A stretch of DNA of 64,000 nucleotides from an uncultured Pelagibacteraceae bacterium (GTDB lineage Bacteria > Pseudomonadota > Alphaproteobacteria > Pelagibacterales > Pelagibacteraceae). The notes beneath the pieces were generated by a model. It was not told where the DNA came from and made no database searches. It worked only from the letters and a program-made list of their open reading frames with translations. Where the stretch lies: NCBI GenBank assembly GCA_902577285.1, contig CACGYL010000001.1:1-64000 (forward strand), in the 5' to 3' direction. Each line of letters begins with the position of its first letter. The first letter of the stretch is position 1. This document shows, one piece after another, positions 11,800 through 31,283 of the stretch. The position numbers were made by a program, and so were the translations under genes.

Positions 11800-12540
11800 A
11801 TGAATTCAACAAAAATAGAACCAAAATATATAAGTAAATCAAATCCACGAGTTGGCCTTATTGCTCTTGCAAGTGATTTTATGATTGAGAGAGATTTTAT
11901 TAATGTAATAAAGGATAGAGAAATTGATTTTTTTGTTAATAGAATAGAGTGTTATAATCCTTTAACCAAAGAAAATCTGATTAAAATGTCAGATAAAGTA
12001 ACCGATGTTGCAAAAGATATTCTTCCAGACCAAGATATAGACTGTGTTGTCTATGGATGCACTTCAGGAACAATAGCTGCAGGATACAATTCAATAGAAC
12101 AAAAGGTAAAAGCAGCAAAACCAATGGCTGAGGTTACAACACCAAGCACCGCTGCTATAAAAGCTTTAAATAAATTAAATATACGCAAGCTTTGTTTATT
12201 TACTCCATACAGCAAAAAACTAAATGATGATGTTATAGAATATTTTAAATCTGAAGGATTTGAAATAACCTCAAATTCTTATTTTGATATAGAGTCAGAC
12301 TACGATATTGGTAAAGTAGATCAAAATTATTTGTATGATGTGTTGTCTAAAATAGATTTAAATGGCGCGGAAGCATTATTTGTATCTTGCACAGCTTTAC
12401 CTGTACTTCCAATAATTGATAAACTTGAAAAAAAATTAAATTCAATTGTTTTATCAAGTAACCAGGCTTTAATCTGGGATACACTTGTTAAAATAAATAA
12501 AGATAATCAAGTTGAGGGTTTTGGAAAATTATTCAGATAG
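11800..12540 (+). CDS. Asp/Glu racemase superfamily (maleate isomerase/arylmalonate decarboxylase/EutA-like)
   Basis: Two catalytic-Cys motifs, VVYGCTSGTIAAG and VSCTALPVLPIID. Confidence 0.8.
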   Translation: MNSTKIEPKYISKSNPRVGLIALASDFMIERDFINVIKDREIDFFVNRIECYNPLTKENLIKMSDKVTDVAKDILPDQDIDCVVYGCTSGTIAAGYNSIEQKVKAAKPMAEVTTPSTAAIKALNKLNIRKLCLFTPYSKKLNDDVIEYFKSEGFEITSNSYFDIESDYDIGKVDQNYLYDVLSKIDLNGAEALFVSCTALPVLPIIDKLEKKLNSIVLSSNQALIWDTLVKINKDNQVEGFGKLFR

Positions 12541-12546
12541 AAAATA

Positions 12547-13716
12547 ATGTCATTTAGTGAAGAGGAATATCAAAAAAGATTAAAAAAAGTAAAGTCAATG
12601 ATGGAAAAAAAAGGCATTGAACTTTTAATTTCTCACGACACTAATAATATGAACTATTTGACTGGTTATGATGCTTGGTCTTTTTATTATGCTCAATGTG
12701 CAATTGTTCATATAAATGCAGATGAACCTCTTTGCTTTGTAAGAGCACAAGATGCTGGAGGCGCTTATATAAAAACTTATCTTAAAGATGAAAACATAAT
12801 TGTGTATGATGAAAATTATATTCACACATGGCCAAAACATCCCTACGATTATTTAGTAAAAATAATTAAAGACAGAAAATGGGATAAACTTTCGATTGGT
12901 GTTGAAATGGATGCCCATTACTTCACAGCTTTCTGCTATGAAAAGATAAAACAAGGTTTACCAAACGCAAAAATTAAAGATTCAGAACGTTTAGTCAACT
13001 GGGCGAGATTTGCAAAATCTGATGCAGAAATAAAATATATGAAAAATGCTGCATTGATTTCAGAAAAAGGGATGAAAACTGCAATGGAAGTAATTAAACC
13101 TGGTGTAAGGCAATGCGATGCTGTTGGAGAGATACAAAAAACTTTATTTTATGGAACACCAGAGTTTGGAGGAGAATATTCGAGTATTGCAACACTTCTT
13201 CCAACAGGAAAGGGAACTTCAGCTTCACATTTAACTGCTACTCAAGATAAGTTTGTAGAGGGGGAAGCAACAATTGTAGAGTTATCTGGAGTTTACAAAA
13301 GATATCATGCTCCAATGGCAAGAACTGTTTTGTTAGGAAAACCCAATCAACTAAAAATTGATACGATGAAAAAGACTATTGAAGCTCTAGAAGCTGGAAT
13401 TAAAGTAACAAAAGCTGGAAATACTGCAAATGATGTTGCCCAAGCATTTTGGGGAGTTTTAGACAAATATGGAATAGAGAAAAAGTCCAGAACAGGTTAC
13501 TCAATTGGTATTGGTTACCCACCTGATTGGGGTGAACATACTTTGAATATATATAAAGATGAAATGACAGAATTAGTTCCAAATTCTTGTTTTCATATGA
13601 TAGCTGTAATGCAATTTGGTGATTGGGGAGTTGAAGCATCAGAATCTATAAGAGTTACTAACAATGGATGTGAATTATTTTGTAATTATCCAAAAGAGTT
13701 ACATATTAAGAGTTAA
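12547..13716 (+). CDS. M24-family peptidase-like hydrolase, DoeA (ectoine hydrolase)-like
   Basis: NMNYLTGYDAWSFYYAQ N-terminal signature and pita-bread C-terminal domain. Confidence 0.75.
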   Translation: MSFSEEEYQKRLKKVKSMMEKKGIELLISHDTNNMNYLTGYDAWSFYYAQCAIVHINADEPLCFVRAQDAGGAYIKTYLKDENIIVYDENYIHTWPKHPYDYLVKIIKDRKWDKLSIGVEMDAHYFTAFCYEKIKQGLPNAKIKDSERLVNWARFAKSDAEIKYMKNAALISEKGMKTAMEVIKPGVRQCDAVGEIQKTLFYGTPEFGGEYSSIATLLPTGKGTSASHLTATQDKFVEGEATIVELSGVYKRYHAPMARTVLLGKPNQLKIDTMKKTIEALEAGIKVTKAGNTANDVAQAFWGVLDKYGIEKKSRTGYSIGIGYPPDWGEHTLNIYKDEMTELVPNSCFHMIAVMQFGDWGVEASESIRVTNNGCELFCNYPKELHIKS

Positions 13717-14945: not shown

Positions 14946-16064
14946 ATGAAAAAATTAAGTAAATTATTACTTGCTTTAACATTTGCAGTTTCTGTATCTA
15001 CATCCGCTTTTGCAGTAGTTGTTGCATCATGGGGTGGAGCATACACAGAAAGTCAAAAGTTAGGATATGGTGATCCAACATCGAAGGCATTAGGTATACC
15101 AATCGAGTGGGTTGACTATTCAGGCGGACTTTCAGAAATTAAAGCTCAAATAGAAGCAGGAGCAATCACATGGGATATTATAGACGTATTCGCTTACGAT
15201 ACTATTAATGGTTGTGATGAAGGAATTTTTGTTGAATTTGATTTTGACAAAGACTTTCCACCAGCACCAGATGGTACGCCTGCAAGTGAAGACTTCTTCA
15301 CTGATATGCCAAGTAAATGTGCGGTAGGAAATATTTTATATTCTTGGAACTATGCTTACAACAGTGATTTGTTAAAAAGCACTCCAACGACTTTAAAAGA
15401 TTTCTTTAACACAAAAAGATTTCCAGGAAAAAGAGCTATTTACAAAAGTGCATTAACTAACTTAGAGATTGCATTAGCAGCAGATGGCGTAAAAATGGGT
15501 AAAGGTGGAGAATTTATCTACAAAAAATTAGAAGAGCCAGGATATGTTGACAGAGCAATGAATAAAATCAAAGCACTATGTGAGGATCCAAATGGCGGAT
15601 GTGTATTTTGGTCAGCTGGAGCTCAACCACCAGAATTATTAATGAGTGGTGAAGTTGTAATGGCAACTGGTTGGAATGGTAGATTTTTCAATGCAGCTGT
15701 TGGAGAAGGTGCTCCAATAGTTCAAGTTTGGGACGGACAAGGTCTTGACTATGAATATTTTGCATTAGTTAAAGGTGGACCAAACCAAGAAGATGCTATG
15801 AAGGCTTTAGCAATGATGACAAGTACTGAGATGTTAGCAGGAAGTGCAAAATACATTGCATATGCACCATGGAGAAAATCATCAATTGCAGTTATGGAAG
15901 CAGGCGAGCCTTGGTATAAAGATGGAAAAACTAATATGGTTCCACATATGCCAACAGCACCAGCTAACCTTAAAAGATACTTCTTAGTAGACGCTGAGTA
16001 CTGGGCTGATAACGGTACAGAGCTTGGTGAAAAATGGGAAGCTATGAAAGCTAGCATTAAATAA
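14946..16064 (+). CDS. Extracellular solute-binding protein (PotD/PotF-like)
   Basis: Signal peptide MKKLSKLLLALTFAVSVSTSAFA; ...VASWGGAYTES; strong SD cggagg. Confidence 0.9.
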   Translation: MKKLSKLLLALTFAVSVSTSAFAVVVASWGGAYTESQKLGYGDPTSKALGIPIEWVDYSGGLSEIKAQIEAGAITWDIIDVFAYDTINGCDEGIFVEFDFDKDFPPAPDGTPASEDFFTDMPSKCAVGNILYSWNYAYNSDLLKSTPTTLKDFFNTKRFPGKRAIYKSALTNLEIALAADGVKMGKGGEFIYKKLEEPGYVDRAMNKIKALCEDPNGGCVFWSAGAQPPELLMSGEVVMATGWNGRFFNAAVGEGAPIVQVWDGQGLDYEYFALVKGGPNQEDAMKALAMMTSTEMLAGSAKYIAYAPWRKSSIAVMEAGEPWYKDGKTNMVPHMPTAPANLKRYFLVDAEYWADNGTELGEKWEAMKASIK

Positions 16065-18242: not shown

Positions 18243-19367
18243 TTAATCTACAGTCTCAATTACTGTAGCTATTCCCATTCCCAAACCAATACACTGAGTA
18301 GATAGAGCATATTTTTTATTTTCTCTTTTTAATAAATCAGCTGCTTTACCAGTAATTCTTGCACCTGTTGCACCAAGTGGATGGCCAAGAGCAAGAGCTC
18401 CACCATCTAAATTAACTTTATCTTTATCTATACCTAAATCTTTAATACACGCTAATGACTGAGAGGCAAAAGCTTCATTCAATTCAACAATATCAATTTG
18501 GTCAGCTGACAAGTTGGCCCTCTTTAAAGCTTTTTTTGAAGCGCCAATTGGACCAAGGCCCATGTAATCAGGGTCACAGCCCTCGACAGCAGTAGAGATT
18601 ATTCTTCCCAAAATATTTAAATTATTTTCTTTTGCATAATTTTCCTCACAAATTAAAGTTGCCGCAGCACCATCTGTTAAAGGTGATGAAGTTGCAGCTG
18701 TAACTGTTCCATTTTCATCAAAAGCAAGTTTTAATCCATCTAATTTTTCCATTGTACTATTTGGTCTAATGTTTCCATCTGTATCACAATCACCAATTGA
18801 TACTATTTCATTCTTAAAATTCCCTTTGGTCTGAGCTTCGTGTGCTTTTTGATGACTTGATATAGCAAACTCCTGTTGTTCAATTCTTGAAATGTTATAC
18901 TTTTTAGCAACATTTTCTGCAGTTGTTCCCATTGAAAAATAAACATGTGGATTATCTGTTTTACTTTCAGGGTAGGGGATTGGTTCAAAACCAGTATTTA
19001 CTCTTGTCATACTTTCTACTCCCCCACAGACAAATACTTTTCCAGCACCTAATGAAATTTTACCAGCTGCGATATGAATAGCTTCCATTGATGAACCACA
19101 CCATCTATCCACTGTCATACCAGAGGTTTTAACATTCATCCCACTTAGAAAAGTAGTTAACTTTCCAATATTAAAACTTTGTTCTCCTGTTTGAAATGCA
19201 CAACCAACTACAATGTCCTCAATGTCATCTTTTTTAACATTTGATTTTGATACTAAATCTTTAATTACTTCTGCTAATAGATTAACTGGTTTTGAGTCAA
19301 TTAAAGCTCCCTTTCTTGCCATAGTAAAAGGTGATCTTGAAAATCCTGCTATTACTGGTTTAAACAT
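18243..19367 (-). CDS. Thiolase / acetyl-CoA acyltransferase
   Basis: DRWCGSSMEA, NLDGGALALGHPLGATGAR, CIGLGMG motifs. Confidence 0.93.
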   Translation of the reverse strand: MFKPVIAGFSRSPFTMARKGALIDSKPVNLLAEVIKDLVSKSNVKKDDIEDIVVGCAFQTGEQSFNIGKLTTFLSGMNVKTSGMTVDRWCGSSMEAIHIAAGKISLGAGKVFVCGGVESMTRVNTGFEPIPYPESKTDNPHVYFSMGTTAENVAKKYNISRIEQQEFAISSHQKAHEAQTKGNFKNEIVSIGDCDTDGNIRPNSTMEKLDGLKLAFDENGTVTAATSSPLTDGAAATLICEENYAKENNLNILGRIISTAVEGCDPDYMGLGPIGASKKALKRANLSADQIDIVELNEAFASQSLACIKDLGIDKDKVNLDGGALALGHPLGATGARITGKAADLLKRENKKYALSTQCIGLGMGIATVIETVD

Positions 19368-19382
19368 AATTTAAGTATAAGG

Positions 19383-20549
19383 TTAATCAGGAAATGGTAA
19401 AGAAGTTATAATGCCTTTTCTATTTTTTCCATTAAAAGTGTTTATAAAAACTTCATTCCCTATATCCCAAAAATCTCTACTTATCATTGATAAACCTATA
19501 TTTTTCTTTATTCTCGGAGAATAAATTCCTGAAGCAATTTGACCAATTTTTTTATTGTTTTTTGAGTATACCGGCAAAGGAACTCCTGTTGGTTTGCAGG
19601 GATCGCCATCAAAAATTATTCCTCTCATCTGTTGTGTTATTCCTTCAGATTGAATCTTTCTCAAAGCATCTTTTCCAATAAAATCATGATCATCTTCTTG
19701 TTTACAATATTTCTCAAGATTGCATTCCAATGGGTTATTTTCTCTGGTGAAATCATTACCATAGGACATAAGTCCTGCCTCAATTCTATCAATTAAGTTT
19801 GGACATCCAGGAGATATATTAAATTTTTGACCATGATCCCAAATAATATTCCAAAGCTTTTCACCAAGTTCAATTTCATTAAAATGAGTTTCAAATCCTT
19901 TAAAATAAATTTCAAAACCATCTTGCTTACTATATCCAGACCTTGCGATTATTTGTTTTGTGCCCAAAAAGTCAAAAACTTTAAAATTGAAAAATTTTAA
20001 TTTTTTTATGTCTTCACCAAATATTGAAATCAGTAGGTCTTCAGATTTAGGACCTTGAATAGCTAATGGATAAACATCTGGTTCTACTATTTCAACATTA
20101 TATCCAGAACCTAATGCAATTCCTTTTGCCCAAAGCAGAATATCTGAGTCAGCTATTGAAATCCAAAACATGTCATCATCTAGTTTTAGTAAAACTGGAT
20201 CATTAATCATTCCTGCAGTCTCATCTATTATTGGGATATAAAAACATTTTCCAGTTTCCATTTTTTTTATAGAGCGAGGTGTCATTTTTTGCACAAGCTT
20301 TGCTGAGTCAGGACCTGTAATTTGTACTTGTCTTTGACAAGATACATCCCAAACTTGAACCTGCTCTCTTAAATGCCAGTAATCTTCCTCAACTGTATTT
20401 TTAAATCCTTTCGGTAACAACATGTGGTTTACAACAGTAAAATCTGATACACCAAGTTCTTCAACCTTGTTTGTAAATGGAGTACGTCTTATACGTCTTG
20501 ACATATTTAATTTAATATTTTTTTTATTTATTAAATTTTCTCTACTCAT
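19383..20549 (-). CDS. GcvT/aminomethyltransferase-family protein, DmdA (DMSP demethylase)-like
   Basis: RRTPFTNKVEELGVSDFTVVNHMLLPKGF...QVWDVSCQRQVQITGPDSAKLVQKMTPR resembles Pelagibacter DmdA from memory. Confidence 0.75.
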   Translation of the reverse strand: MSRENLINKKNIKLNMSRRIRRTPFTNKVEELGVSDFTVVNHMLLPKGFKNTVEEDYWHLREQVQVWDVSCQRQVQITGPDSAKLVQKMTPRSIKKMETGKCFYIPIIDETAGMINDPVLLKLDDDMFWISIADSDILLWAKGIALGSGYNVEIVEPDVYPLAIQGPKSEDLLISIFGEDIKKLKFFNFKVFDFLGTKQIIARSGYSKQDGFEIYFKGFETHFNEIELGEKLWNIIWDHGQKFNISPGCPNLIDRIEAGLMSYGNDFTRENNPLECNLEKYCKQEDDHDFIGKDALRKIQSEGITQQMRGIIFDGDPCKPTGVPLPVYSKNNKKIGQIASGIYSPRIKKNIGLSMISRDFWDIGNEVFINTFNGKNRKGIITSLPFPD

Positions 20550-20550
20550 T

Positions 20551-20886
20551 TTATTTTGACCACCATACAGTGTAGCTGTTTTTTGAAATTATGATTGGTA
20601 TATGATATTTTTTATTATTATCTTCCATTTTAAATTTAATATTTATTTCAGAAATAATTCTTTTCTCAGAAAAATAACCCCCAATTTTGCAAATCATTTC
20701 ATATTCACACTTGGTATCATCATCACTTAGATCAAACTCTTTATGTATTCTACCTCCATCATCAGATTTAGTTTCAAAAAAAATTTCTTTATCTCCATTT
20801 TTTTTTATTTGATAAATTATTACATCGATATCTCCAGCATGAGATCCATTTGTGGCGTCTAATAAGTGTGATGAAAATATTGCCAT
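20551..20886 (-). CDS. Transthyretin/HIUase-like protein
   Basis: SSHLLDATNGSHAGDIDV N-terminus, DDGGR, YHIPIIISKNSYT C-terminal strand; lacks terminal YRGS. Confidence 0.7.
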   Translation of the reverse strand: MAIFSSHLLDATNGSHAGDIDVIIYQIKKNGDKEIFFETKSDDGGRIHKEFDLSDDDTKCEYEMICKIGGYFSEKRIISEINIKFKMEDNNKKYHIPIIISKNSYTVWWSK

Positions 20887-20887
20887 T

Positions 20888-22630
20888 TTATTCTATTGAC
20901 GACTTCTCTCTTTTACTTGCAACTGCAGAGACTATTGGGCTTAGTACTGGTTTTGCTTTGACATTTACACATGCAGGTTTTCCACTTTCCATTGCCCTTT
21001 TAAGCGCCGGTGCTAGCTCTTCTCTTTTATTAACTAATTCTCCATACCCTCCAAAACCCTCAAATATCTTATGAAAAGGGATGTCTCGAAAATCAGTTGC
21101 AACGCTTTTCCCACTTTTAAATAACCTCTCTTGTTGTTGCCCTATTGAGGCCAATCCACCATTGTTATCAATTACAACAGTAATGGGTTTTTTTTCATAA
21201 AATACACTTTCAATAGACATACCTCCTGATAAAAACGCACCATCTCCACTGATAAGAACAACATTTGAGTCTGGATTGTGATTTTTAGCAGATAAAGCAA
21301 ACGAAACCCCAACACCTAACATACTAAATGTTCCAGGATGTAAGATACCTTTTAATTTTTTACCTTTTGCACCAGCAATATTAATTGCAATCTCTGACCA
21401 GAAATGGGTATTTCCTCCATCTATAACTAGCCAGTCATTTTCACCCATTGCTTCTTGGACATCTAATGAAAGTTGTAGAGGATGAATTTTACCACCATTT
21501 TTTTTTGATGCCTCAGCCTCAATTGCTAAATCTTTCAAAGATTTATCTACCCATTCTTTTTTCTTTTTTTTATTTTCTTCGAACCAAGTTGTATCTAAAT
21601 TCCATTTATTATTTTTCTTTAAATTAGATAATGTATCTAAAAAAACACCAGGATCGCTTAGTAAACAAAAATCAGCTGCTCTATTAAGTTCGATTTCCTC
21701 ATGGGAGCCATTAATACATATCAACTTTGTTGATTTTGGTATAAAGGGTGGATTTCCAAAATTCATTTGATTGTCTAAACGAGCTCCAATAACAAGTACT
21801 AAATCAGAATTTTGTAGTGCATATTCTGAGGGAGGATATTGGTGTATATCAGCTAATCCCATATAAGCATTTGCTTCCTCACCTAATAATTTTTGATGAT
21901 ATGGAACATTAAAAATTGGTATATTTAAATTATTACCAGCTGCTTCAAGATTTTTTTCTGAATGTGACCACCAAATTCCATGGCCACCTATTATAATTGG
22001 TTTTTTAGCATTACTAGCAAATTCTAAAACTTCTGATAGAGAATTTGGATCTGGCCAAGCTTTAGCTAAAGGTTTAGCTTTGTGAGAAAATGGTCTTTCT
22101 TCTAACCCTACTTCTTCAGCAAATGATGAAAACATAATATCTACTGGAAGACTAAGATGAACAGCTCCTGGATAACCGTTGGTAGCAATGTGATATGCTT
22201 TGTCGACAAATTCTCTTATTCTTGTACCATCGGTAATGCTCGCACTGTATTTAGTTAAAGGAGCTGCAATTGAAACATCATCTATTTCTTTAAAACCACC
22301 CGAACCTTGCCTTTTAAGACTACTAGAACCTGTAATATAAATAACAGGACTTCTCTCACCCCAAGCCTCCATCATAGAGGGAACTGCGTTAGTAAATCCC
22401 TCTGGTCCAACTAAGCATACTGATGGTTTACGAGTAATTCTTGTATTGCCATCTGCTAAATGACCTGCAATTTGTTCATGAGGTGTATTTATCACTTCAA
22501 TTTGACACTCAGCAAATCCTTCAATTGCTGGATTACAAAAACCTCCTGCAAGAGTAAAAACTTTACTAATTCCCTTATCTTTTAAAGCTCTAGCTAATAA
22601 CGCTCCACCTCTAATTTTATTCTCACTCAT
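20888..22630 (-). CDS. ThDP-dependent enzyme (acetolactate synthase/2-hydroxyacyl-CoA lyase-like)
   Basis: HEQIAGHLADG catalytic Glu region, GDGAFLSGGMSIESV...VVIDNN ThDP motif. Confidence 0.88.
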   Translation of the reverse strand: MSENKIRGGALLARALKDKGISKVFTLAGGFCNPAIEGFAECQIEVINTPHEQIAGHLADGNTRITRKPSVCLVGPEGFTNAVPSMMEAWGERSPVIYITGSSSLKRQGSGGFKEIDDVSIAAPLTKYSASITDGTRIREFVDKAYHIATNGYPGAVHLSLPVDIMFSSFAEEVGLEERPFSHKAKPLAKAWPDPNSLSEVLEFASNAKKPIIIGGHGIWWSHSEKNLEAAGNNLNIPIFNVPYHQKLLGEEANAYMGLADIHQYPPSEYALQNSDLVLVIGARLDNQMNFGNPPFIPKSTKLICINGSHEEIELNRAADFCLLSDPGVFLDTLSNLKKNNKWNLDTTWFEENKKKKKEWVDKSLKDLAIEAEASKKNGGKIHPLQLSLDVQEAMGENDWLVIDGGNTHFWSEIAINIAGAKGKKLKGILHPGTFSMLGVGVSFALSAKNHNPDSNVVLISGDGAFLSGGMSIESVFYEKKPITVVIDNNGGLASIGQQQERLFKSGKSVATDFRDIPFHKIFEGFGGYGELVNKREELAPALKRAMESGKPACVNVKAKPVLSPIVSAVASKREKSSIE

Positions 22631-23794
22631 TTAGTAATTTACCTTATTAATAGTATTCTCTATTACTATCTCAGAAGTTACTTCATTAATATCATTTAAA
22701 CCAACCAACCCTAGTGTTGTGCTAACTTCTTCTTTTATAATCTCAACTATTCTCCTTAATCCTTTTTTTCCATCAGCTCCCATTGCATACATAACAGGTC
22801 TTCCAATCATTGCATAATCTGCACCAAATGCTAGCGCTCTTACTATATCGCTTCCACTTCTTATTCCACTATCAAAGATTAAAGGAAAATTACTTCCAAC
22901 TGATTTTCTAATCAAAGGAAGCATATTTATTGCTGCTGTGGCACTGTCTAATTGCCTACCTCCATGATTTGAAACTTGAATAGCATCCGCACCAGCTTCT
23001 TTTATTTTTATTGCGTCATCAGGAGACATTACTCCTTTAACAATAAGTTTGCCTTTCCATTTATCCCTTACTCTTTTAAGTGTGTTCCAATCAGTAGAAC
23101 CTCTACTTTCTTTTCTTTTAAAGATTCCATCTCCACTTTTCGATGTTACATAATTCATTGGCTTAGGAATTCCACTTATCAAAGTTGATAGAGACCAAGT
23201 CGGATGACTTGCAAAATCAAAAAATTGTTTTGGACCTATCTTAAAAGGATAAGAGAAACCATTTTTATCATCTCTAGTTCTTCTAGATAAAACTGGCACA
23301 TCTACAGTTAAAATTGCTACCTCATAACCAGTATTTTTTGCTCTTTCCAAAAGTTCCATCACGAAATTCTCATCTTGAAAAATATATAACTGCATCCACG
23401 AATGACCCTCTGAGAGTTCATACATCTTTTCTAATGTTGTGGTTGATGCCATAGAGACACAAGTTGGAATATTATTTCTTGCACTTTCAGCGGCTAACAT
23501 AGAGTCTGCTCCTGGCCAAGACAAATTAGTCATTCCCATAGGAGCAAAACCAAAAGGAAAATTAAATTCGTATCCTAATAACTTTTTTTTAAGAGATCTT
23601 TTTTCAACATTTCTTAAAACTTTGGGCTCTAATCTAATTTGGTCTAGAGCTATACTGTTGATTTCAGCAAGCTTCTCATCTCCTGATGCTCCGTCAATAA
23701 AATCAAAAACTAATTTGGGAAGACGTTTACGTGATAGTTCTCTTGCATCTTTTATGCTAAAGATTTTTTGACTTGGTAAAATATTATCACTCAT
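22631..23794 (-). CDS. FMN-dependent alpha-hydroxy acid oxidase/dehydrogenase
   Basis: VSNHGGRQLD, DSGIRSGSDIVRALAFGADYAMIGRP motifs. Confidence 0.93.
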   Translation of the reverse strand: MSDNILPSQKIFSIKDARELSRKRLPKLVFDFIDGASGDEKLAEINSIALDQIRLEPKVLRNVEKRSLKKKLLGYEFNFPFGFAPMGMTNLSWPGADSMLAAESARNNIPTCVSMASTTTLEKMYELSEGHSWMQLYIFQDENFVMELLERAKNTGYEVAILTVDVPVLSRRTRDDKNGFSYPFKIGPKQFFDFASHPTWSLSTLISGIPKPMNYVTSKSGDGIFKRKESRGSTDWNTLKRVRDKWKGKLIVKGVMSPDDAIKIKEAGADAIQVSNHGGRQLDSATAAINMLPLIRKSVGSNFPLIFDSGIRSGSDIVRALAFGADYAMIGRPVMYAMGADGKKGLRRIVEIIKEEVSTTLGLVGLNDINEVTSEIVIENTINKVNY

Positions 23795-24479
23795 TGTTAA
23801 TTTTAATATATTCTTTTAAGTTAAATTGTTTATTTTGATTAACAAAATAAGCATTATGACCTTTTCTAGAAGAATAAACCTCTGTTGGTTTTCCGTCAAT
23901 AAAAAGTACTGCAACACCATCATCAACAGCAACACCATCTGGTAAAGTTTTGTTTTTAATATTTTCTCTATATTTTTCTGCTCTTTTTGAGTCTGAATAA
24001 TGTGGTGTAAAACTTCCGTTTAATAATCCAATGCCATTCATAGATTTAAATCCAGGTCCATCTGAGTCAGTCAGAAAACAATCAAACCAACATGCAGCAC
24101 CAGCACTTACACCTGATAGAATTATACCTGAATTGTAAACTTCTTTTAAAAGCCCAATTAAATTATTTTCTTTCCAATATTTGAGCATGAATTTTGTATT
24201 TCCACCACCTACATAAATTGCATCAAGATTTGAAAGCCAATTTTCAAAACCTTTTACGCTAGAGATAAGATTAAAGTGAGATATGTTTAAATCTAAATCT
24301 TCAAATCTTTTGTAAAATAATTTGGTTTTATTTGAGTCATCGTTACTTGCAATAGGTAAAAATCCTAATGAGGAATTTTTTTTGTTAATATGCTTTAAAA
24401 TGAATTGGTCTTGATCATTATCTTGGTTGTGAGTAAAACCTCCACCTCCGATAGTAATTATTTTTTTTTTGATCTTCAC
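23787..24479 (-). CDS. Peptidase E (S51)-like
   Basis: IYVGGGNTKFML, SGVSAGAACWF nucleophile elbow. Confidence 0.85.
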   Translation of the reverse strand: MKIKKKIITIGGGGFTHNQDNDQDQFILKHINKKNSSLGFLPIASNDDSNKTKLFYKRFEDLDLNISHFNLISSVKGFENWLSNLDAIYVGGGNTKFMLKYWKENNLIGLLKEVYNSGIILSGVSAGAACWFDCFLTDSDGPGFKSMNGIGLLNGSFTPHYSDSKRAEKYRENIKNKTLPDGVAVDDGVAVLFIDGKPTEVYSSRKGHNAYFVNQNKQFNLKEYIKINNE

Positions 24480-24504
24480 TAATTATATTTTTAACAATTT
24501 GAAT

Positions 24505-25722
24505 TTAAATACCAGGCCAAGGTTTAGGTTCATGGGGTATATTTCTGTCTATACCTCTTACTATTTCTCCCTGTTCATCATACATTGGTAATTTACAGAT
24601 TTGACCTTTATGTAATTTTCCATCAGTGCATTTGACATCAACTATATCGCCTGGTCCATTTTCATTATTGTTGAGGCGCACTATACCAACACCACAAACT
24701 TGATAAGGTGACCATGTGCTAGATGTTATTTTACCAATCTCTTCTTCATTTAATTTAATACTCTCTCCCTTAATTGCAGTTCCAGACATAACCCGAATTC
24801 CCCAAGTCTTACATTTTTTCTCCGATGACATAAGTGCCTCTTTTCCAATAAAATTCTCTTTATCAAAATTTATAAATCTTCCAAGTCCAACTGAAAAAGG
24901 ATTGGTATTTTTTGAAAAATCTTGTCCAGCAGACAAAAGTCCAGCTTCAATTCTTCGACATCTAAATCCTGGTGTAGCTACCAAAATCATACCTAATTTT
25001 TTTCCTTCCTCAAGAATATAATCTCCAACTTTCTCTGTTTCATTTTCAGGTCTAAAATAAATTTCCCAACCAAGTTCATTAGTAAAACCACTTCTGCTTA
25101 CTATTACTTTTTGATCTAAAATTTGTAATTCTTTCCAATCAAAATATTTCCAATCATTTTCTGTAAAACCATTACTTAATTTTTCAAGTAGTTTCATGGA
25201 CAAAGGACCTTGAACCTGGCTTACCCAAACATTTGGATCATCAATTTCTACATTAAAATTTTTAGAATGCGCTTTATACCAAGAAAATAGATCACCATCT
25301 GCTTGCGCAAACCAATATTTATCTTTATCAATTCTTAAAAGTATCCCATCCGTAATCATCCCGCCATCATGATAGCAAGCAAACTGATACGAACATCTTC
25401 CCACAGCAATTTTTGAAATATCTCTAGGAAATATTTTTTGTAAAAATTTAAGAGCATCTGGTCCTGATATTTCAAATGGGTGTTCTCCCGTATGCCTAAA
25501 AATAATTTCTCTCCTTGCCTTCCAATACATTTCCTCAGGACTAACATTAGATAATTTTTCAAGGGTTAATCTCCCTGCATAATTTGAATATTCCGGGTCA
25601 TACGGCAATTCCTGATAAGTTAAGGGGTGAACTTGAATTGATCTTGCAAGTTCTAATGAATTTGAATTTTCAAGGCTAACAGGTTTTACAGTAAACCTAT
25701 ATTTATTGATTAAATCATTCAT
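24505..25722 (-). CDS. GcvT-like (aminomethyltransferase/DmdA/LigM superfamily) protein
   Basis: ISGPDALKFLQKIFPRDISKI, VQGPLSMKLLEKL, RIEAGLLSAGQDF...NFIGKEAL. Confidence 0.85.
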   Translation of the reverse strand: MNDLINKYRFTVKPVSLENSNSLELARSIQVHPLTYQELPYDPEYSNYAGRLTLEKLSNVSPEEMYWKARREIIFRHTGEHPFEISGPDALKFLQKIFPRDISKIAVGRCSYQFACYHDGGMITDGILLRIDKDKYWFAQADGDLFSWYKAHSKNFNVEIDDPNVWVSQVQGPLSMKLLEKLSNGFTENDWKYFDWKELQILDQKVIVSRSGFTNELGWEIYFRPENETEKVGDYILEEGKKLGMILVATPGFRCRRIEAGLLSAGQDFSKNTNPFSVGLGRFINFDKENFIGKEALMSSEKKCKTWGIRVMSGTAIKGESIKLNEEEIGKITSSTWSPYQVCGVGIVRLNNNENGPGDIVDVKCTDGKLHKGQICKLPMYDEQGEIVRGIDRNIPHEPKPWPGI

Positions 25723-25834
25723 TATTTTTTAGATAATCAGAATACATCAATAAAACAAATAAAAAATGTCCATTTTGACTGTTGCTATATAAGTAGCTAA
25801 TTGTTACCTTTTATTTTTTTAAAGAGAGGAAATT

Positions 25835-27322
25835 ATGAAAAACATTTTAAAATTGATATCAATTTCATTGGTATCACTATTTGTGACATTTTCATTTGCC
25901 AATGCATCTAGTGGGGTTTTCAAGCTATCTCATGATCTTGGTTTTGGAAAAGATACAAATTTAGATGCAATTACTAAAGGAAGACTATTTCAAGTAGTGA
26001 TAATGACTCAAAATCGTCTTGTTAGAAAAGATCTTAAAGGAGTTACTTCTCCTGAGTTAGCTACTGACTGGTCAGGTAACGCAGATGCAACAGAATGGAC
26101 TTTTAACTTAAGAAAAGGTGTTAAATTCCATGACGGATCTGATTTTGATGCAGAGGATGTAAAATACTCTTTAATGAGAGTTAAAGATCCTGAGATTGGT
26201 TCGCCTGCTAAAAAAAGCATGAGTGCAGTAACAGACATAGAAGTTGTTGACTCACACACAGTAAAAATAAAGTTGAATACATCATTTGCAGATTTTCCAC
26301 TTTTATTAACTGATTATAGATTAAGAATGATACCAAATGGATCAGGTGATACTATTGGAAAAACAGGTATTGGAACTGGACCGTTTATAGTTGATAAATT
26401 CGATGCTGAGGGAACAACAATTCTTAAAGCAAACCCAGATTATTGGGAAGGAGCACCAAAACTTGCTGAGGTACATGTAATTGCTATCCCAGATGGTCAA
26501 GCTAGAATTCAAGCTCTACTTACTGGTCAAATAGATATGAATAGATATGTTCCATTCAATCAGAAAAAAATATTTGATGGTAATTCAAAATTTAACGTTT
26601 CAGTTATACCAACAGGAAACTGGAGAGGTATGGTAATGAGAACTGATGTTGCACCTTTTGATGATCCTAGAGTAAGAAAGGCTGTTAGAATAGCTGTAGA
26701 TAGACAAGAATTAGTTGATCTAGTTATGGCTGGAGCAGCAACAGTGTCTTGTGATACCCCTGTTGCACCATCAGATCAATATAGAATGAAAAAAAGTTGT
26801 CCACCACAACCAGCTACAGCAAAAAAATTACTAAAAGAAGCTGGATATCCTGATGGTATTGATATGACAATTCACGTATCTACAAAAGAACCAACATGGC
26901 CAACTATTGCTGAAGTTTTGCAACAACAGCTTGCAAAAGCTAATATAAGAGCAGATATTCAAATGACACCATCAAAAAGTTATTGGAACGAAACTTGGAT
27001 GAAAAAGGCTGTTGCAATGACACGTTGGAATGAAAGACCAGCAGATAGTATTTTGCACGAGGCTTATCACAGCGAAGCAAAATGGAATGAGTCATATTAT
27101 AAAAGTGCATCTTTTGATAAGAATTTAGCTGAAGCAAGAGGTGAGTTAAATTTTAGCAAAAGAAAAGCAGCATATATTAATGCTCAAAAAACATTATGGG
27201 AAGAGTCTGGAACAATGATTCCTTACCATGTGTCTAGACTTGTTGTGACGTCTTCTAGAGTGAAAAATCTTGACGAAGTTGAGTATTTTTCAATTAGATG
27301 GCACACACTAAGTGTCCAGTAA
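25835..27322 (+). CDS. Peptide/opine-type ABC transporter substrate-binding protein (SBP family 5, DppA-like)
   Basis: Signal peptide; WTFNLRKGVKFHDGSDFDAEDVKYSL motif. Confidence 0.92.
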   Translation: MKNILKLISISLVSLFVTFSFANASSGVFKLSHDLGFGKDTNLDAITKGRLFQVVIMTQNRLVRKDLKGVTSPELATDWSGNADATEWTFNLRKGVKFHDGSDFDAEDVKYSLMRVKDPEIGSPAKKSMSAVTDIEVVDSHTVKIKLNTSFADFPLLLTDYRLRMIPNGSGDTIGKTGIGTGPFIVDKFDAEGTTILKANPDYWEGAPKLAEVHVIAIPDGQARIQALLTGQIDMNRYVPFNQKKIFDGNSKFNVSVIPTGNWRGMVMRTDVAPFDDPRVRKAVRIAVDRQELVDLVMAGAATVSCDTPVAPSDQYRMKKSCPPQPATAKKLLKEAGYPDGIDMTIHVSTKEPTWPTIAEVLQQQLAKANIRADIQMTPSKSYWNETWMKKAVAMTRWNERPADSILHEAYHSEAKWNESYYKSASFDKNLAEARGELNFSKRKAAYINAQKTLWEESGTMIPYHVSRLVVTSSRVKNLDEVEYFSIRWHTLSVQ

Positions 27323-27330
27323 TAATTTTT

Positions 27331-27362
27331 GTTTTACAGGCCTTTAATAAGGCCTGTAAAAC
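27331..27362 (+). other. Perfect 14-bp intergenic hairpin downstream of dppA-like gene
   Basis: GTTTTACAGGCCTT-TAAT-AAGGCCTGTAAAAC, no strong U-tract; candidate mRNA processing/stability element. Confidence 0.8.
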
Positions 27363-27404
27363 CTCTTTCATTTCTAAATAAATAATTTAAAATTTAAAAT
27401 TCTT

Positions 27405-28361
27405 ATGCTTTTTTTAATTATAAAAAGAATTTTGTTAGGTTTTATTACCTTATTTATTGTTTCTATAATTACGTTTGTAGGCACAGAAATTTTACCAGGG
27501 GATGCATGCACTACTTATTTAGAAAGACAAGCTTTTGGTGAGCAATTAGAAGCTTGTTACAGAAGACTTGGTTTAAATGTTCCAGCTTATGAGAGATATG
27601 TATCGTGGGCATTAAATGCTATTCAAGGAGACTTCGGTTATTCTTTAAGTGGAGAGATGCCAATCAAAGAAGTTTTGGGACCTAGAATTAAAAATTCACT
27701 TGTATTGGCATCAGCTGCAATTTTTATAGGTATACCAATAGCCTTAATTTTAGGAATTATTACTGCTCTGTGGAGAGACAAGTTACCTGATGTTGCAATA
27801 TCAACAGTAACCATATTTGCTATGACTATTCCAGAATTTATAAGTGCTACTTTGTTGATCTTAATAATTGCAATATGGTTAGAGTGGTTACCCGGTATAG
27901 TAATAGTTCCAACAGATGTCTCTTTCTTAGAGTTGCTGCCAAATATAATTTTACCAGTGGTTGCTATAGCTATGATTATGACAGCTCATATGGCTCGAAT
28001 GGTAAGGTCAAGTGTAATTCAAGTAATGGCAAGTGAATATGTTCAAATGGCAATTCTTAAAGGAGTTCCTTATTGGAAAATGGTTTTCAAACATGTTTTA
28101 CCAAATGCATTATTACCTGCGATTAATGTCGTAGCCTTGACTATTGCATGGCTTTTAGGTGGAGTTGTAGTAACCGAAGTTGTATTTAATTACCCTGGTC
28201 TTGGAAGACTAGTAATTGAGTCAATTTCAAACAGAGATTTACCAACAGTTCAAGCATTAGCAATAATTCTTGCATCTATCTACGTAAGTATAAATTTATT
28301 AGCTGATCTATTGACACTAATACTTAATCCTAGATTAAAAACTTTACAGATAAGAAAATAA
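27405..28361 (+). CDS. Dipeptide-type ABC transporter permease (DppB-like)
   Basis: GDFGYSLSGEMPIKEVL, MARMVRSSVIQVMASEYVQMAILKG motifs. Confidence 0.93.
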   Translation: MLFLIIKRILLGFITLFIVSIITFVGTEILPGDACTTYLERQAFGEQLEACYRRLGLNVPAYERYVSWALNAIQGDFGYSLSGEMPIKEVLGPRIKNSLVLASAAIFIGIPIALILGIITALWRDKLPDVAISTVTIFAMTIPEFISATLLILIIAIWLEWLPGIVIVPTDVSFLELLPNIILPVVAIAMIMTAHMARMVRSSVIQVMASEYVQMAILKGVPYWKMVFKHVLPNALLPAINVVALTIAWLLGGVVVTEVVFNYPGLGRLVIESISNRDLPTVQALAIILASIYVSINLLADLLTLILNPRLKTLQIRK

Positions 28362-28362
28362 T

Positions 28363-29256
28363 ATGAAATTGGATAATATTTACAAGGAGGAGAAGAAAAG
28401 TGCTATTGCAAAACTATCTGAAATTATAATTACAATGGCTTCAAGACCATCTGGACTTATCGGTCTTAGTATTTTAGTTTTTCATATAATTCTTGCATTT
28501 ATAAGCCCTTATATTGCTCCTCATGATTTTAAAGCTATTGATCCAACATTAATGCTTCAGGCTCCTTCAGCTGAGTATTGGTTTGGAACTGACGATCTTG
28601 GAAGAGATGTTTTTACGAGAACAATTTTGGGAGGAAGAACAGCTCTCACAATAACTTTCTTTGGATCATTAATAGCATTACTGTGGGGTGGTCTTTTAGG
28701 AATATTTTGTGGATTGGTTGGAGGAAAAATTGACGATGTAGTTATGAGAATTGTAGATGCATTCCTATCTATTCCATGGATATTAGCAATGTTATTAATT
28801 GTATCTTTGTTAGGGACATCTACTGAAGTATTGATACCTGCCTTAGGATTTTTTTATGGTAAAGGAATTGTAAGAGTTGCAAGAGCAGCAACACATGATG
28901 TTATCGCAAAAGACTTTATAGTCTCTGCAAAAGCGAGGGGACATAGTAATTTTTCAATTATTTGGAATGAAATAATTCCTAATGTAAGAGACGCAATATT
29001 AGTTGAAGGTGCAATGCGATGGTCATGGATGTTGCTTGGATTTAGTTCTCTATCTTTTTTAGGTTTTGGGGTTAGTCCTCCAACTCCAGACTGGGGATTA
29101 ATGATATCAAATGCAAGAGGGTTGATGTCTTTTGCTTATTGGGCAGTAATAGCACCAATTGTTGGATTAAGTAGTTTAATTATAGGTATTAATTTAACAG
29201 CAGACGCTTTTGCAAAAGCTTTAGGAATAGATAGATCAACTAAAGCTCCCGTTTAA
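28363..29256 (+). CDS. Dipeptide-type ABC transporter permease (DppC-like)
   Basis: YWFGTDDLGRDVFTRTILGGRTAL motif. Confidence 0.93.
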   Translation: MKLDNIYKEEKKSAIAKLSEIIITMASRPSGLIGLSILVFHIILAFISPYIAPHDFKAIDPTLMLQAPSAEYWFGTDDLGRDVFTRTILGGRTALTITFFGSLIALLWGGLLGIFCGLVGGKIDDVVMRIVDAFLSIPWILAMLLIVSLLGTSTEVLIPALGFFYGKGIVRVARAATHDVIAKDFIVSAKARGHSNFSIIWNEIIPNVRDAILVEGAMRWSWMLLGFSSLSFLGFGVSPPTPDWGLMISNARGLMSFAYWAVIAPIVGLSSLIIGINLTADAFAKALGIDRSTKAPV

Positions 29257-29258
29257 TT

Positions 29259-31283
29259 ATGACTGATATAATTCAAAAAGTAAAAAACTTATCTATTGGA
29301 TTTAGAAGTAAAAAAGGCGATGAAATCTTAATTTTAAAAAATATAAGCACAAATATCAAAAAGGGTGAAACAGTTGGAATAGTAGGGGAATCTGGTTCAG
29401 GAAAAAGCACATTAGCATTAGCAATGATGGGATATGTTAAACATGGACTTTATACCATCGGAGGGGAATGTCAGTTTAATTCGTCAAATCTACTGAAAAT
29501 GAAAAGTAAAGATCTAGAAAAAATTAGAGGCAGAAAGATAGCAATGATCCCACAAAATGCAGGTCAAGCATTGACACCAAATTTAAAAATAGGTTATCAA
29601 ATTGATGAAGCTTTGCAATTACATTCTGATTTAAATGAAAAAGAGAGAGAAAAAAAAATTTCAGAACTATTGAATAAAGTTAGACTTCCCTCACCAGAAA
29701 CAATTGCCCTTAGATATCCTCATGAACTTTCAGGAGGACAACAGCAAAGAGTTGCTGTAGCTATGGCTTTAGCTGGAACTCCGGATTTACTTCTTTTAGA
29801 TGAACCAACAACTGGACTAGATGTAACAACTCAAGCTCATGTATTAGAACTTCTCAATTTTATTGCAAAAGATACTGGAACATCTATGGTTTATGTGAGC
29901 CATGATCTTGGAGCTATTGCTCAAGTGAGTGATAGAATTATTGTTATGTATTCAGGAGAAATTGTTTTAGAAGGCCCTTCAAGAGATATCCTAAAAAGAC
30001 CCATTCATCCTTATACTCATGGATTACTCAAATCTATCCCAAAATTATCTTTAGCTGGCCTTCCTGAGTCAATGCCAGGTAGTCAACCTCAACCAGGTAC
30101 AATTCAAAGTGGTTGTAGTTTTTTTGATAGATGTAATTTTTCAGATGAGAATTGTAAAAATAATTCTCCTCAATTAGAATTTTTAAAAGACTTAAATACT
30201 AGTGTTAGATGTTTTAATTATGAAAAACTTATAAATGAAAATCAAGTAAGCCAAACAGTTAATAAAATTAAGAATAAATCACAAGATAAAGAAATATTAA
30301 ATTTATCAGAAGTATCTATTAGTTATGCTAAACAAAAACTTTTAGATCAAATTTTCAATAGAATTTCTGATGACAACCCTACAGTTAAAGACATTAATAT
30401 AAATATCAAAAAGGGAGAGACGATAGCGTTAGTAGGAGAGTCAGGAAGTGGAAAATCAACAATTCTCAAATCAATTGCTGGTCTACTTAGAACTAAAGAT
30501 GGTCTAATAAGGTTTGATGAAAATAGAAATTTATCATCTGATTTGAAAGAAAGAGATCCAAATGATTTAAGAATTATTCAATTAATATTTCAAAATCCAG
30601 ATGAGTCTTTGAATCCAAACCACACAATAGAAGAAATTATTGCACAACCATTAAAATTATATTTTGGATTAAAAGGTGAAGAATTAAAAAAAAATATTAT
30701 AGACCTATTACAAAAAGTAAGACTTGGAGAATTTTATACCTCTAGATATCCAAGACAACTATCTGGCGGTGAAAAACAAAGAGTAGCGGTTGCAAGAGCT
30801 TTTGCTGCAAAACCAGATATTATTTTATGTGATGAGGTAACATCTGCTTTAGATGTTTCCGTGCAAGCTGCTGTATTAAATTTATTACAACAACTAAAAG
30901 AAAATTTTGGAACGACATATATCTTTGTATCACATGATTTAGCTGTTGTCAGAGCAATTAGTGATAGAGTAGCAGTCCTTTATCAAGGAAGACTTTGTGA
31001 AGTTGGACCTTCAAATGATGTTTACAGGTTTCCATCTCACCCTTATACAGAAGTTTTGTTGGGCGCTGTGTTAGAGCCAGATCCAGACATAAAACCTAAA
31101 TTAGTTGCTGAGGATATTGTTGAAGAGAGACCTCCCGAAAAAGGCTGCAGTTTTCAAGGCAGATGCTCCAGAATTGTTGGAGATATTTGTAAGAAAGAAA
31201 TACCACCATGGCAATTAACAGATAGTGGTAACGCTATCAGATGCCATATACCTATTAAAGAATTACAAAAAGAACAATTTTAA
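29259..31283 (+). CDS. Fused DppD-DppF-type ABC ATPase with two nucleotide-binding domains
   Basis: Two Walker A (GESGSGKS) and two LSGG signatures in 674 aa. Confidence 0.93.
   Translation: MTDIIQKVKNLSIGFRSKKGDEILILKNISTNIKKGETVGIVGESGSGKSTLALAMMGYVKHGLYTIGGECQFNSSNLLKMKSKDLEKIRGRKIAMIPQNAGQALTPNLKIGYQIDEALQLHSDLNEKEREKKISELLNKVRLPSPETIALRYPHELSGGQQQRVAVAMALAGTPDLLLLDEPTTGLDVTTQAHVLELLNFIAKDTGTSMVYVSHDLGAIAQVSDRIIVMYSGEIVLEGPSRDILKRPIHPYTHGLLKSIPKLSLAGLPESMPGSQPQPGTIQSGCSFFDRCNFSDENCKNNSPQLEFLKDLNTSVRCFNYEKLINENQVSQTVNKIKNKSQDKEILNLSEVSISYAKQKLLDQIFNRISDDNPTVKDININIKKGETIALVGESGSGKSTILKSIAGLLRTKDGLIRFDENRNLSSDLKERDPNDLRIIQLIFQNPDESLNPNHTIEEIIAQPLKLYFGLKGEELKKNIIDLLQKVRLGEFYTSRYPRQLSGGEKQRVAVARAFAAKPDIILCDEVTSALDVSVQAAVLNLLQQLKENFGTTYIFVSHDLAVVRAISDRVAVLYQGRLCEVGPSNDVYRFPSHPYTEVLLGAVLEPDPDIKPKLVAEDIVEERPPEKGCSFQGRCSRIVGDICKKEIPPWQLTDSGNAIRCHIPIKELQKEQF

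Follow-up and report, generated by a model that had tools for sequence, protein, structure and literature searches.

A conserved gene cassette carrying a sister-clade paralog of the DMSP demethylase DmdA in SAR11, SAR116, and other Alphaproteobacteria

Introduction

The demethylase DmdA, known from Pelagibacter (solved structure 3TFH) and from Rhodobacterales, acts on dimethylsulfoniopropionate (DMSP) and passes methyl groups to folate. Here, we describe a gene cassette that includes a relative of this enzyme, in a window of 64,000 nucleotides (positions 1 to 64,000 of contig CACGYL010000001.1) from a Pelagibacteraceae (SAR11) genome that is 58% complete. The cassette comprises seven open reading frames (ORFs) at positions 18243-25722 (Table 1), among them genes for two GcvT-fold proteins, GcvT-A and GcvT-B, an enzyme dependent on thiamine diphosphate (ThDP), and a flavin mononucleotide (FMN)-dependent 2-hydroxyacid oxidase. 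GcvT-A shares with DmdA the GcvT fold and 48% identity over its full length, passes the curated cutoff for DmdA, and keeps equivalents of E204, Y206, and the NDP motif. Unlike DmdA, it carries the exchanges Y32V, A39K, and E63Q, stands in a different operon, and coexists with a true DmdA.

Other described systems match other parts of the cassette. The mandelate pathway also places an FMN-dependent 2-hydroxyacid enzyme (mandelate dehydrogenase) beside a ThDP enzyme (benzoylformate decarboxylase), although it has no demethylases, importer, or protein resembling 5-hydroxyisourate hydrolase (HIUase), and the ThDP enzyme of the cassette is nearer to the group of 2-hydroxyacyl-CoA lyase (HACL), oxalyl-CoA decarboxylase, and acetolactate synthase. 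HACL and oxalyl-CoA decarboxylase provide the nearest solved structures to this protein, which nonetheless falls far below their equivalog cutoffs and has motifs of its own. With true HIUase, the small HIUase-like protein shares its fold and a His/Arg/His set, but it scores below the family cutoff, its YRGS tail is replaced, and it has no urate-pathway partner. Glycine betaine demethylation by MtgBCD (PMC12478193) shares the MtgB/MttB family (PF06253) with the SAR116 versions of the cassette, and in both cases methyl groups would reach folate; however, no MtgC or MtgD was recognized in the cassette, SAR11 has a GcvT protein in that place, and the cassette adds the FMN, ThDP, and HIUase-like enzymes. 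In the open-licence papers that we searched, mostly at the level of titles and abstracts, the gene set is undescribed, and the titles and abstracts on homarine and other known marine N-methyl pathways contained no matching gene set. What is new is the combination of genes and the sister clade of DmdA; the enzyme families are known, and no new enzyme class is involved.

Results and discussion

A sequence-only reading of the window had described the seven genes as tightly packed on one strand, divergent from a peptide-type ABC importer, and had looked to conserved linkage across SAR11 to decide whether they form a unit. We found all seven ORFs on the minus strand; no gap between them exceeds 25 bp, and the only overlap, of 8 bp, is between the S51 hydrolase and FMN genes. 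Pfam assigns every one of them, with high confidence, to the family that had been named, and the divergent importer is likewise confirmed by its family-5 solute-binding protein (SBP5), which matches SBP_bac_5. The importer spans 25835-31283 on the plus strand and starts 112 bp from GcvT-B.

The linkage proved decisively conserved. A contig scan, which reached close SAR11 kin only, gave 80 loci from other genomes, all with the same gene order as far as their contigs extend, apart from occasional insertions at the edges. More distant relatives came from whole-genome searches of sampled Alphaproteobacteria and Pseudomonadota; they belong to family f142, to SAR116 (which includes "Ca. Puniceispirillum marinum" IMCC1322), and to a family, f24, that is taken to be Rhodobacterales on the basis of its very high-scoring roseobacter-type DmdA. 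A core block of FMN, ThDP, HIUase-like, and GcvT-A genes lies on a single strand in 79/83 SAR11 loci, 6/6 f142 loci, 14/15 SAR116 loci, and 2/3 Rhodobacterales loci, and several of the SAR11 and SAR116 loci without the full block lie at contig ends. Throughout, the HIUase-like gene adjoins the ThDP gene. ThDP orthologs outside SAR11 are 64-81% identical and were counted in 33 of 100 genomes for f142 (within its order), 22 of 61 for SAR116, and 3 of 246 for Rhodobacterales, with others in family f82; no ortholog of that level was found in the sampled genomes outside Alphaproteobacteria, and no plasmid-borne relatives of the cassette were found. Distribution within SAR11 is patchy, the ThDP ortholog having been detected in 11 of 37 genomes of the same genus, which are mostly incomplete. 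Because the arrangement recurs in four alphaproteobacterial families with different flanking genes, it is not a product of chance, and the cassette is common to several dominant ocean bacterial groups. Its membership differs somewhat from the seven genes first grouped together: the core four, the S51 hydrolase, and the SBP5 importer belong to the unit, while GcvT-B is lineage specific and the thiolase is only probably a part.

GcvT-A had been called DmdA-like, which is too vague at the level of curated models: it scores 530.5 bits against the NCBIfam DmdA model NF009133 (cutoff 410). Its phylogeny, however, separates it from DmdA. In a posterior mean site frequency (PMSF) maximum-likelihood tree of 58 sequences, midpoint rooted for drawing only, the 24 GcvT-A proteins form one clade (ultrafast bootstrap [UFBoot] 98, SH-aLRT 95) that is sister to the DmdA clade, and the DmdA proteins of SAR11 and f24 form their own clade (96/83), outside which GcvT-A falls. 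Judged by this tree, GcvT-A is a sister to DmdA and not DmdA by descent. The host genome has a separate DmdA (G000:C9:7844-8947) that scores 668 bits to 3TFH, compared with 385 bits for GcvT-A, and a second DmdA-level gene likewise coexists with GcvT-A in genomes of SAR11, f142, and Rhodobacterales, from which a distinct function for GcvT-A is expected. At the same time, GcvT-A is 48% identical both to SAR11 DmdA and to Rhodobacterales DmdA, which are 43% identical to each other; since it is as close to each DmdA group as they are mutually, or closer, activity on DMSP is possible.

The residues that distinguish the two clades are uniform. In 3TFH numbering, V32, K39, Q63, and Q190 occur in 24/24 GcvT-A orthologs, whereas the DmdA clade has Y32, A/T39, and E63 in 15/15 rows. 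Tyr32 is invariant not only in DmdA but also in more distant paralogs, and position 32 probably lies in a pocket loop, as judged from the GcvT fold. Tryptophan W171/W197 has been proposed as a DMSP-specific marker (PMC7487153), but residue 197, which is Trp in SAR11 DmdA and Tyr in GcvT-A, is also Tyr in Rhodobacterales DmdA, and we rejected the marker as nondiagnostic. GcvT-B proteins are monophyletic in a clade of their own (100/100), and the GcvT-B of the window scores below all curated NCBIfam cutoffs, including that of DmdA, its best match (188.6 versus 410 bits), and those of GcvT (153.2 versus 300 and 111.2 versus 235.85 bits). Cultured SAR11 has four described aminomethyltransferases (SAR11_0246, 0666, 1265, and 1303; PMC3160333), and GcvT-A and GcvT-B are presumably not among them, because the cassette ThDP gene is absent from complete SAR11 genomes (e.g., G012, G267, and G357). 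We also noticed a further group of DmdA-like paralogs with scores of about 380 bits, below the cutoff (G441:C1:761158-762252, L194-L201, and others), which is common in SAR116 and f24; similarly scoring paralogs exist in SAR11 genomes.

These relationships bear on SAR116, which has been stated to have dmdA (PMC4304780, PMC12262181). In IMCC1322 (G273), the sole gene above the DmdA cutoff is the cassette GcvT-A (G273:C1:78317-79420, loci L144 and L178; 633 bits), and the same was true of the six other cassette-bearing SAR116 genomes that we tested. The IMCC1322 protein ADE38317.1, used as a DmdA eco-ortholog in a PeerJ 2020 study (PMC7487153), would be this cassette gene, given that there is no other candidate in the genome. 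Very probably, then, the published claims of dmdA in SAR116 rest on the cassette GcvT-A. The point is restricted to cassette-bearing SAR116, because in G805, also of SAR116, a gene at DmdA level (508 bits) lies away from any cassette and groups with DmdA. If GcvT-A is inactive on DMSP, statements about DMSP demethylation in SAR116 and metagenomic counts of dmdA need revision. The question can be tested directly, as IMCC1322 is in culture and none of the proteins is unusual in size.

The remaining enzymes of the core keep catalytic features without matching a curated function. The ThDP protein has an invariant cofactor motif (GDGAFLSGG...DNNGG) and an invariant PHEQ motif with the catalytic Glu, and its best solved match is oxalyl-CoA decarboxylase/HACL (200.9 bits). 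It scores below the NCBIfam cutoffs for acetolactate synthase-like proteins (269 versus 587 bits), HACL (242 versus 600), and oxalyl-CoA decarboxylase (214.6 versus 557). Together with the invariant motifs GPEGF, FKEIDD, and DGGNTHFW and a conserved C-terminal tail (SPIV...SIE), these scores indicate a distinct subfamily about equally far from all three models. The FMN protein, whose best single-domain solved match is (S)-mandelate dehydrogenase (251 bits), keeps equivalents of Tyr129, Lys230, His254, and Arg257 of spinach glycolate oxidase. As a pair, the FMN and ThDP enzymes resemble the mandelate pathway at least as well as alpha-oxidation. The HIUase-like protein keeps the His/Arg/His catalytic-type residues of Escherichia coli HiuH and of solved HIUases, and it scores 66 bits against TIGR02962 (cutoff 87.45); the YRGS tail is absent from all of the cassette HIUase-like proteins, nearly all of which have a WxS-type tail. 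With its tail altered and neither urate oxidase nor OHCU decarboxylase in the cassette, we rejected a purine/urate pathway. The S51 protein likewise falls below the PepE model (43.5 bits, cutoff 156).

Around the core, partner genes vary by lineage. The S51 hydrolase occurs in SAR11, SAR116, and Rhodobacterales cassettes and is conserved but fast evolving. The SBP5 importer is linked in 70/83 SAR11, 10/15 SAR116, and 2/3 Rhodobacterales loci; its SBP5 orthologs in SAR116 and Rhodobacterales are about 55-58% identical, and most of these loci have orthologous permeases and ATPase as well (53-66% identity). Cassettes of f142 have a different SBP5 importer, along with a homocysteine S-methyltransferase-family protein, an enoyl-CoA hydratase, and an OsmC protein. 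GcvT-B is found in the SAR11 and f142 versions and in none of the 15 SAR116 loci compared, most of which (9/15) have a linked MttB-family protein in its place (PF06253, 386.2 versus 25 bits; pyrrolysine equivalog, 328.9 versus 525 bits). Both SAR116 and f24 cassettes have linked LysR regulators. A TRAP (tripartite ATP-independent periplasmic) DctP protein adjoins SAR11 loci L078 and L150 as well as three SAR116 loci, with about 68% identity between the two groups, and an Ldh_2 protein (L146) and a class IV aminotransferase (L150) each occur once among the compared loci. An enoyl-CoA hydratase occurs only in f142 and G980, and an acyl-CoA dehydrogenase in G980.

In the stretches that we read, G980 (of f24) and G426 have the ThDP-HIUase pair only, which in G980 is beside genes for thiolase, 3-hydroxyacyl-CoA dehydrogenase, acyl-CoA dehydrogenase, and enoyl-CoA hydratase. 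Near the same pair, we observed a C-terminal GcvT-B-like fragment (L172, G980:C1:71001-91000, at 14955-15299; 52% identity), and in G426 an asparaginase II-like gene (L147:11058-12128), which may substitute for S51, comes before the pair.

A thiolase ortholog was present in 11/11 SAR11 genomes classed as cassette positive by their ThDP ortholog, whether full or partial; among about 29 cassette-negative genomes, 3 have one, although absences are uncertain because many of the genomes are incomplete. The count excludes G031, in which GcvT-B and S51 lie at the end of a contig. In f142, the thiolase is present with or without the cassette, and it is probably a cassette associate in SAR11 only. FadJ was rejected as a pathway member, being present in 14/14 same-genus SAR11 genomes tested, cassette or not.

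We favor the interpretation, to which we assign a probability of roughly 0.45, that the cassette is a catabolic operon. Its substrate would be a methylated compound, probably an onium (sulfonium or quaternary ammonium), taken up in the form of a peptide- or amide-like conjugate; the onium substrate, the order of steps, and every reaction that follows are what we infer from the genes. The SBP5 importer, or in some genomes a TRAP system or a second SBP5, would bring the substrate in, and the S51 hydrolase would split an Asp-type or amide bond. GcvT-B, replaced by MttB in most SAR116, and GcvT-A could then move methyl groups, GcvT-A to tetrahydrofolate as in DmdA. The FMN enzyme may convert a 2-hydroxyacid to a 2-oxoacid, the ThDP enzyme would cut the C-C bond beside the oxo group, the HIUase-like protein could hydrolyze a labile product, and the remaining skeleton may fall to acyl-CoA enzymes, namely thiolase in SAR11 and enoyl-CoA hydratase in f142. 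In favor of this interpretation, SAR11, SAR116, and Rhodobacterales have S51 and orthologous SBP5 importers alongside the core, GcvT-A is sister to a methyl-to-folate enzyme, the FMN active-site residues are kept, and MttB, whose family is known for quaternary amines, stands in SAR116 cassettes. Variants also carry the extra 2-hydroxy/2-oxoacid enzymes Ldh_2 and class IV aminotransferase, and the similarity of the TRAP DctP proteins between SAR11 and SAR116 suggests an organic-acid-type substrate. The scheme of import, demethylation, oxidation, and ThDP-dependent cleavage that the sequence-only reading had sketched still offers the best account, apart from its specific 2-hydroxyacyl-CoA lyase step.

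Several points weigh against this interpretation. No cassette member has an assigned substrate or activity, and none of the candidate 2-hydroxyacids that we considered accounts naturally for a HIUase-like protein. In the FMN protein of the window, Phe takes the place of Tyr24, which helps to bind the carboxylate in glycolate oxidase. A second demethylation is not universal, for neither GcvT-B nor MttB adjoins the core in the Rhodobacterales cassettes G732 and G1061, and since G980 and G426 keep only the ThDP-HIUase pair, the chemistry of that pair may need no methyl group.

Alternatively, GcvT-A could be a second, divergent DMSP demethylase, such that the operon handles DMSP or its conjugates and supplies SAR116 with its only DmdA, a proposal that we consider unlikely but worth taking seriously. 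It draws on scores above the DmdA cutoff in both the window (530 bits) and IMCC1322 (633 bits), on the even identity of GcvT-A to two DmdA groups that are less alike, on a Tyr197 that Rhodobacterales DmdA shares and that is thus compatible with DMSP, and on the literature that treats SAR116 as dmdA bearing. The separate clade (98/95) beside that of DmdA (96/83), the coexistence of another DmdA-level gene in three lineages, and Val in 24/24 proteins in place of the DmdA-invariant Tyr32 all argue against it, and no dmdB, dmdC, or dmdD was recognized among the neighbors in the SAR11 and SAR116 cassettes examined. A different sulfonium substrate is conceivable in 4-dimethylsulfonio-2-hydroxybutyrate (DMSHB), an intermediate of DMSP biosynthesis. 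DMSHB or a conjugate would be demethylated by GcvT-A and oxidized by the FMN enzyme to 4-methylthio-2-oxobutyrate, followed by ThDP-dependent decarboxylation or transamination to methionine. A DmdA-sister demethylase, a 2-hydroxyacid oxidase, and a ThDP enzyme, with a class IV aminotransferase by one SAR11 cassette, fit this route step by step, yet it leaves the HIUase-like protein, S51, GcvT-B, and MttB unexplained, and none of the titles and abstracts searched reported that bacteria use DMSHB as a nutrient; we regard it as quite improbable.

Alpha-oxidation chemistry was raised by the sequence-only reading; spelled out, the ThDP enzyme would act as a 2-hydroxyacyl-CoA lyase and shorten a CoA thioester, which thiolase and FadJ would then take through beta-oxidation. 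Such chemistry is not supported by ThDP scores so far below the HACL, oxalyl-CoA decarboxylase, and acetolactate synthase-like cutoffs, and it seems improbable to us. HACL and oxalyl-CoA decarboxylase are the nearest solved relatives of the protein, and the G980 pair adjoins beta-oxidation-type genes; against this, the acetolactate synthase-like model scores higher than HACL, FadJ belongs to the SAR11 core and occurs in genomes that lack the cassette, and the cassette showed neither a CoA ligase nor a 2-hydroxylase. An accidental neighborhood of unrelated housekeeping genes, which would have undone the original grouping, holds for FadJ and could hold for the thiolase and BioY, but as an account of the whole it is contradicted by a core four that is syntenic in four families with different flanks and that, where patchy in SAR11, occurs as a block. 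We consider it extremely improbable. Mycosporine-like amino acids, ergothioneine, betaine lipids, arsenobetaine, and gonyol were dropped as substrates, as none explains the gene set.

Returning to the favored interpretation of a catabolic operon for a methylated conjugate, its wider implication, which we hold tentatively and at a little under even odds, is a widespread, so far unrecognized ocean pathway whose substrate is a methylated phytoplankton metabolite, abundant but different from DMSP. The demethylase of this pathway would have been counted as DmdA, so that DMSP demethylation in SAR116 would not exist as annotated and dmdA surveys would overcount. SAR11, SAR116, and f142 include streamlined, abundant surface-ocean bacteria, which seldom keep useless genes. 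Given that such bacteria keep a conserved operon of six to eight genes with its own importer, the substrate should be available in seawater.

Layout of the window and flanking genes

Table 1. Positions of the cassette genes, the divergent importer, and FadJ within the window
Feature	Position	Strand	Basis or remark
Thiolase (acetyl-CoA C-acyltransferase type)	18243-19367	-	Pfam Thiolase_N/C; TIGR01930, 417 bits
GcvT-A (gcvT_A), core gene	19383-20549	-	Pfam GCV_T + GCV_T_C; paralog in sister clade of DmdA
HIUase/transthyretin-like small hydrolase	20551-20886	-	Pfam Transthyretin/HIUase, 67.8 bits
ThDP-dependent enzyme, core gene; distinct, highly conserved subfamily	20888-22630	-	Pfam TPP_enzyme N/M/C
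FMN-dependent 2-hydroxyacid oxidase/dehydrogenase, core gene	22631-23794	-	Pfam FMN_dh, 395 bits
S51-family hydrolase (peptidase E/cyanophycinase-like)	23787-24479	-	Pfam Peptidase_S51, 134.8 bits; GTG start
GcvT-B (gcvT_B), GcvT-fold folate-dependent methyltransferase	24505-25722	-	Pfam GCV_T, 145 bits
Divergent intergenic region, likely with both promoters	25723-25834	.	112 bp here
SBP5, divergent; probable substrate importer	25835-27322	+	Pfam SBP_bac_5, 292 bits
Dpp/Opp-type permeases (two)	27405-28361, 28363-29256	+	ORF list
Fused double ATPase	29259-31283	+	ORF list
FadJ	31972-34194

The divergent intergenic region is 112-141 bp long across 69 SAR11 loci, and in it we found no Rfam match above the gathering score that would indicate a known RNA element. 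In SAR11 genome G024, an opposite-strand ORF of 242 amino acids between GcvT-B and S51 (L150:13417-14145) resembles an amino-acid-type binding protein, and in two SAR116 genomes (L162 and L174) the cassette is followed by fatty-acid-desaturase-like and sugar-isomerase-like TIM-barrel genes (L162:12543-14436). Elsewhere in the window, positions 11800-13716 hold EutA- and DoeA-like ectoine-utilization genes, both below their equivalog cutoffs, and such genes occur in many SAR11 loci beyond a Pot-type ABC importer that adjoins the cassette.

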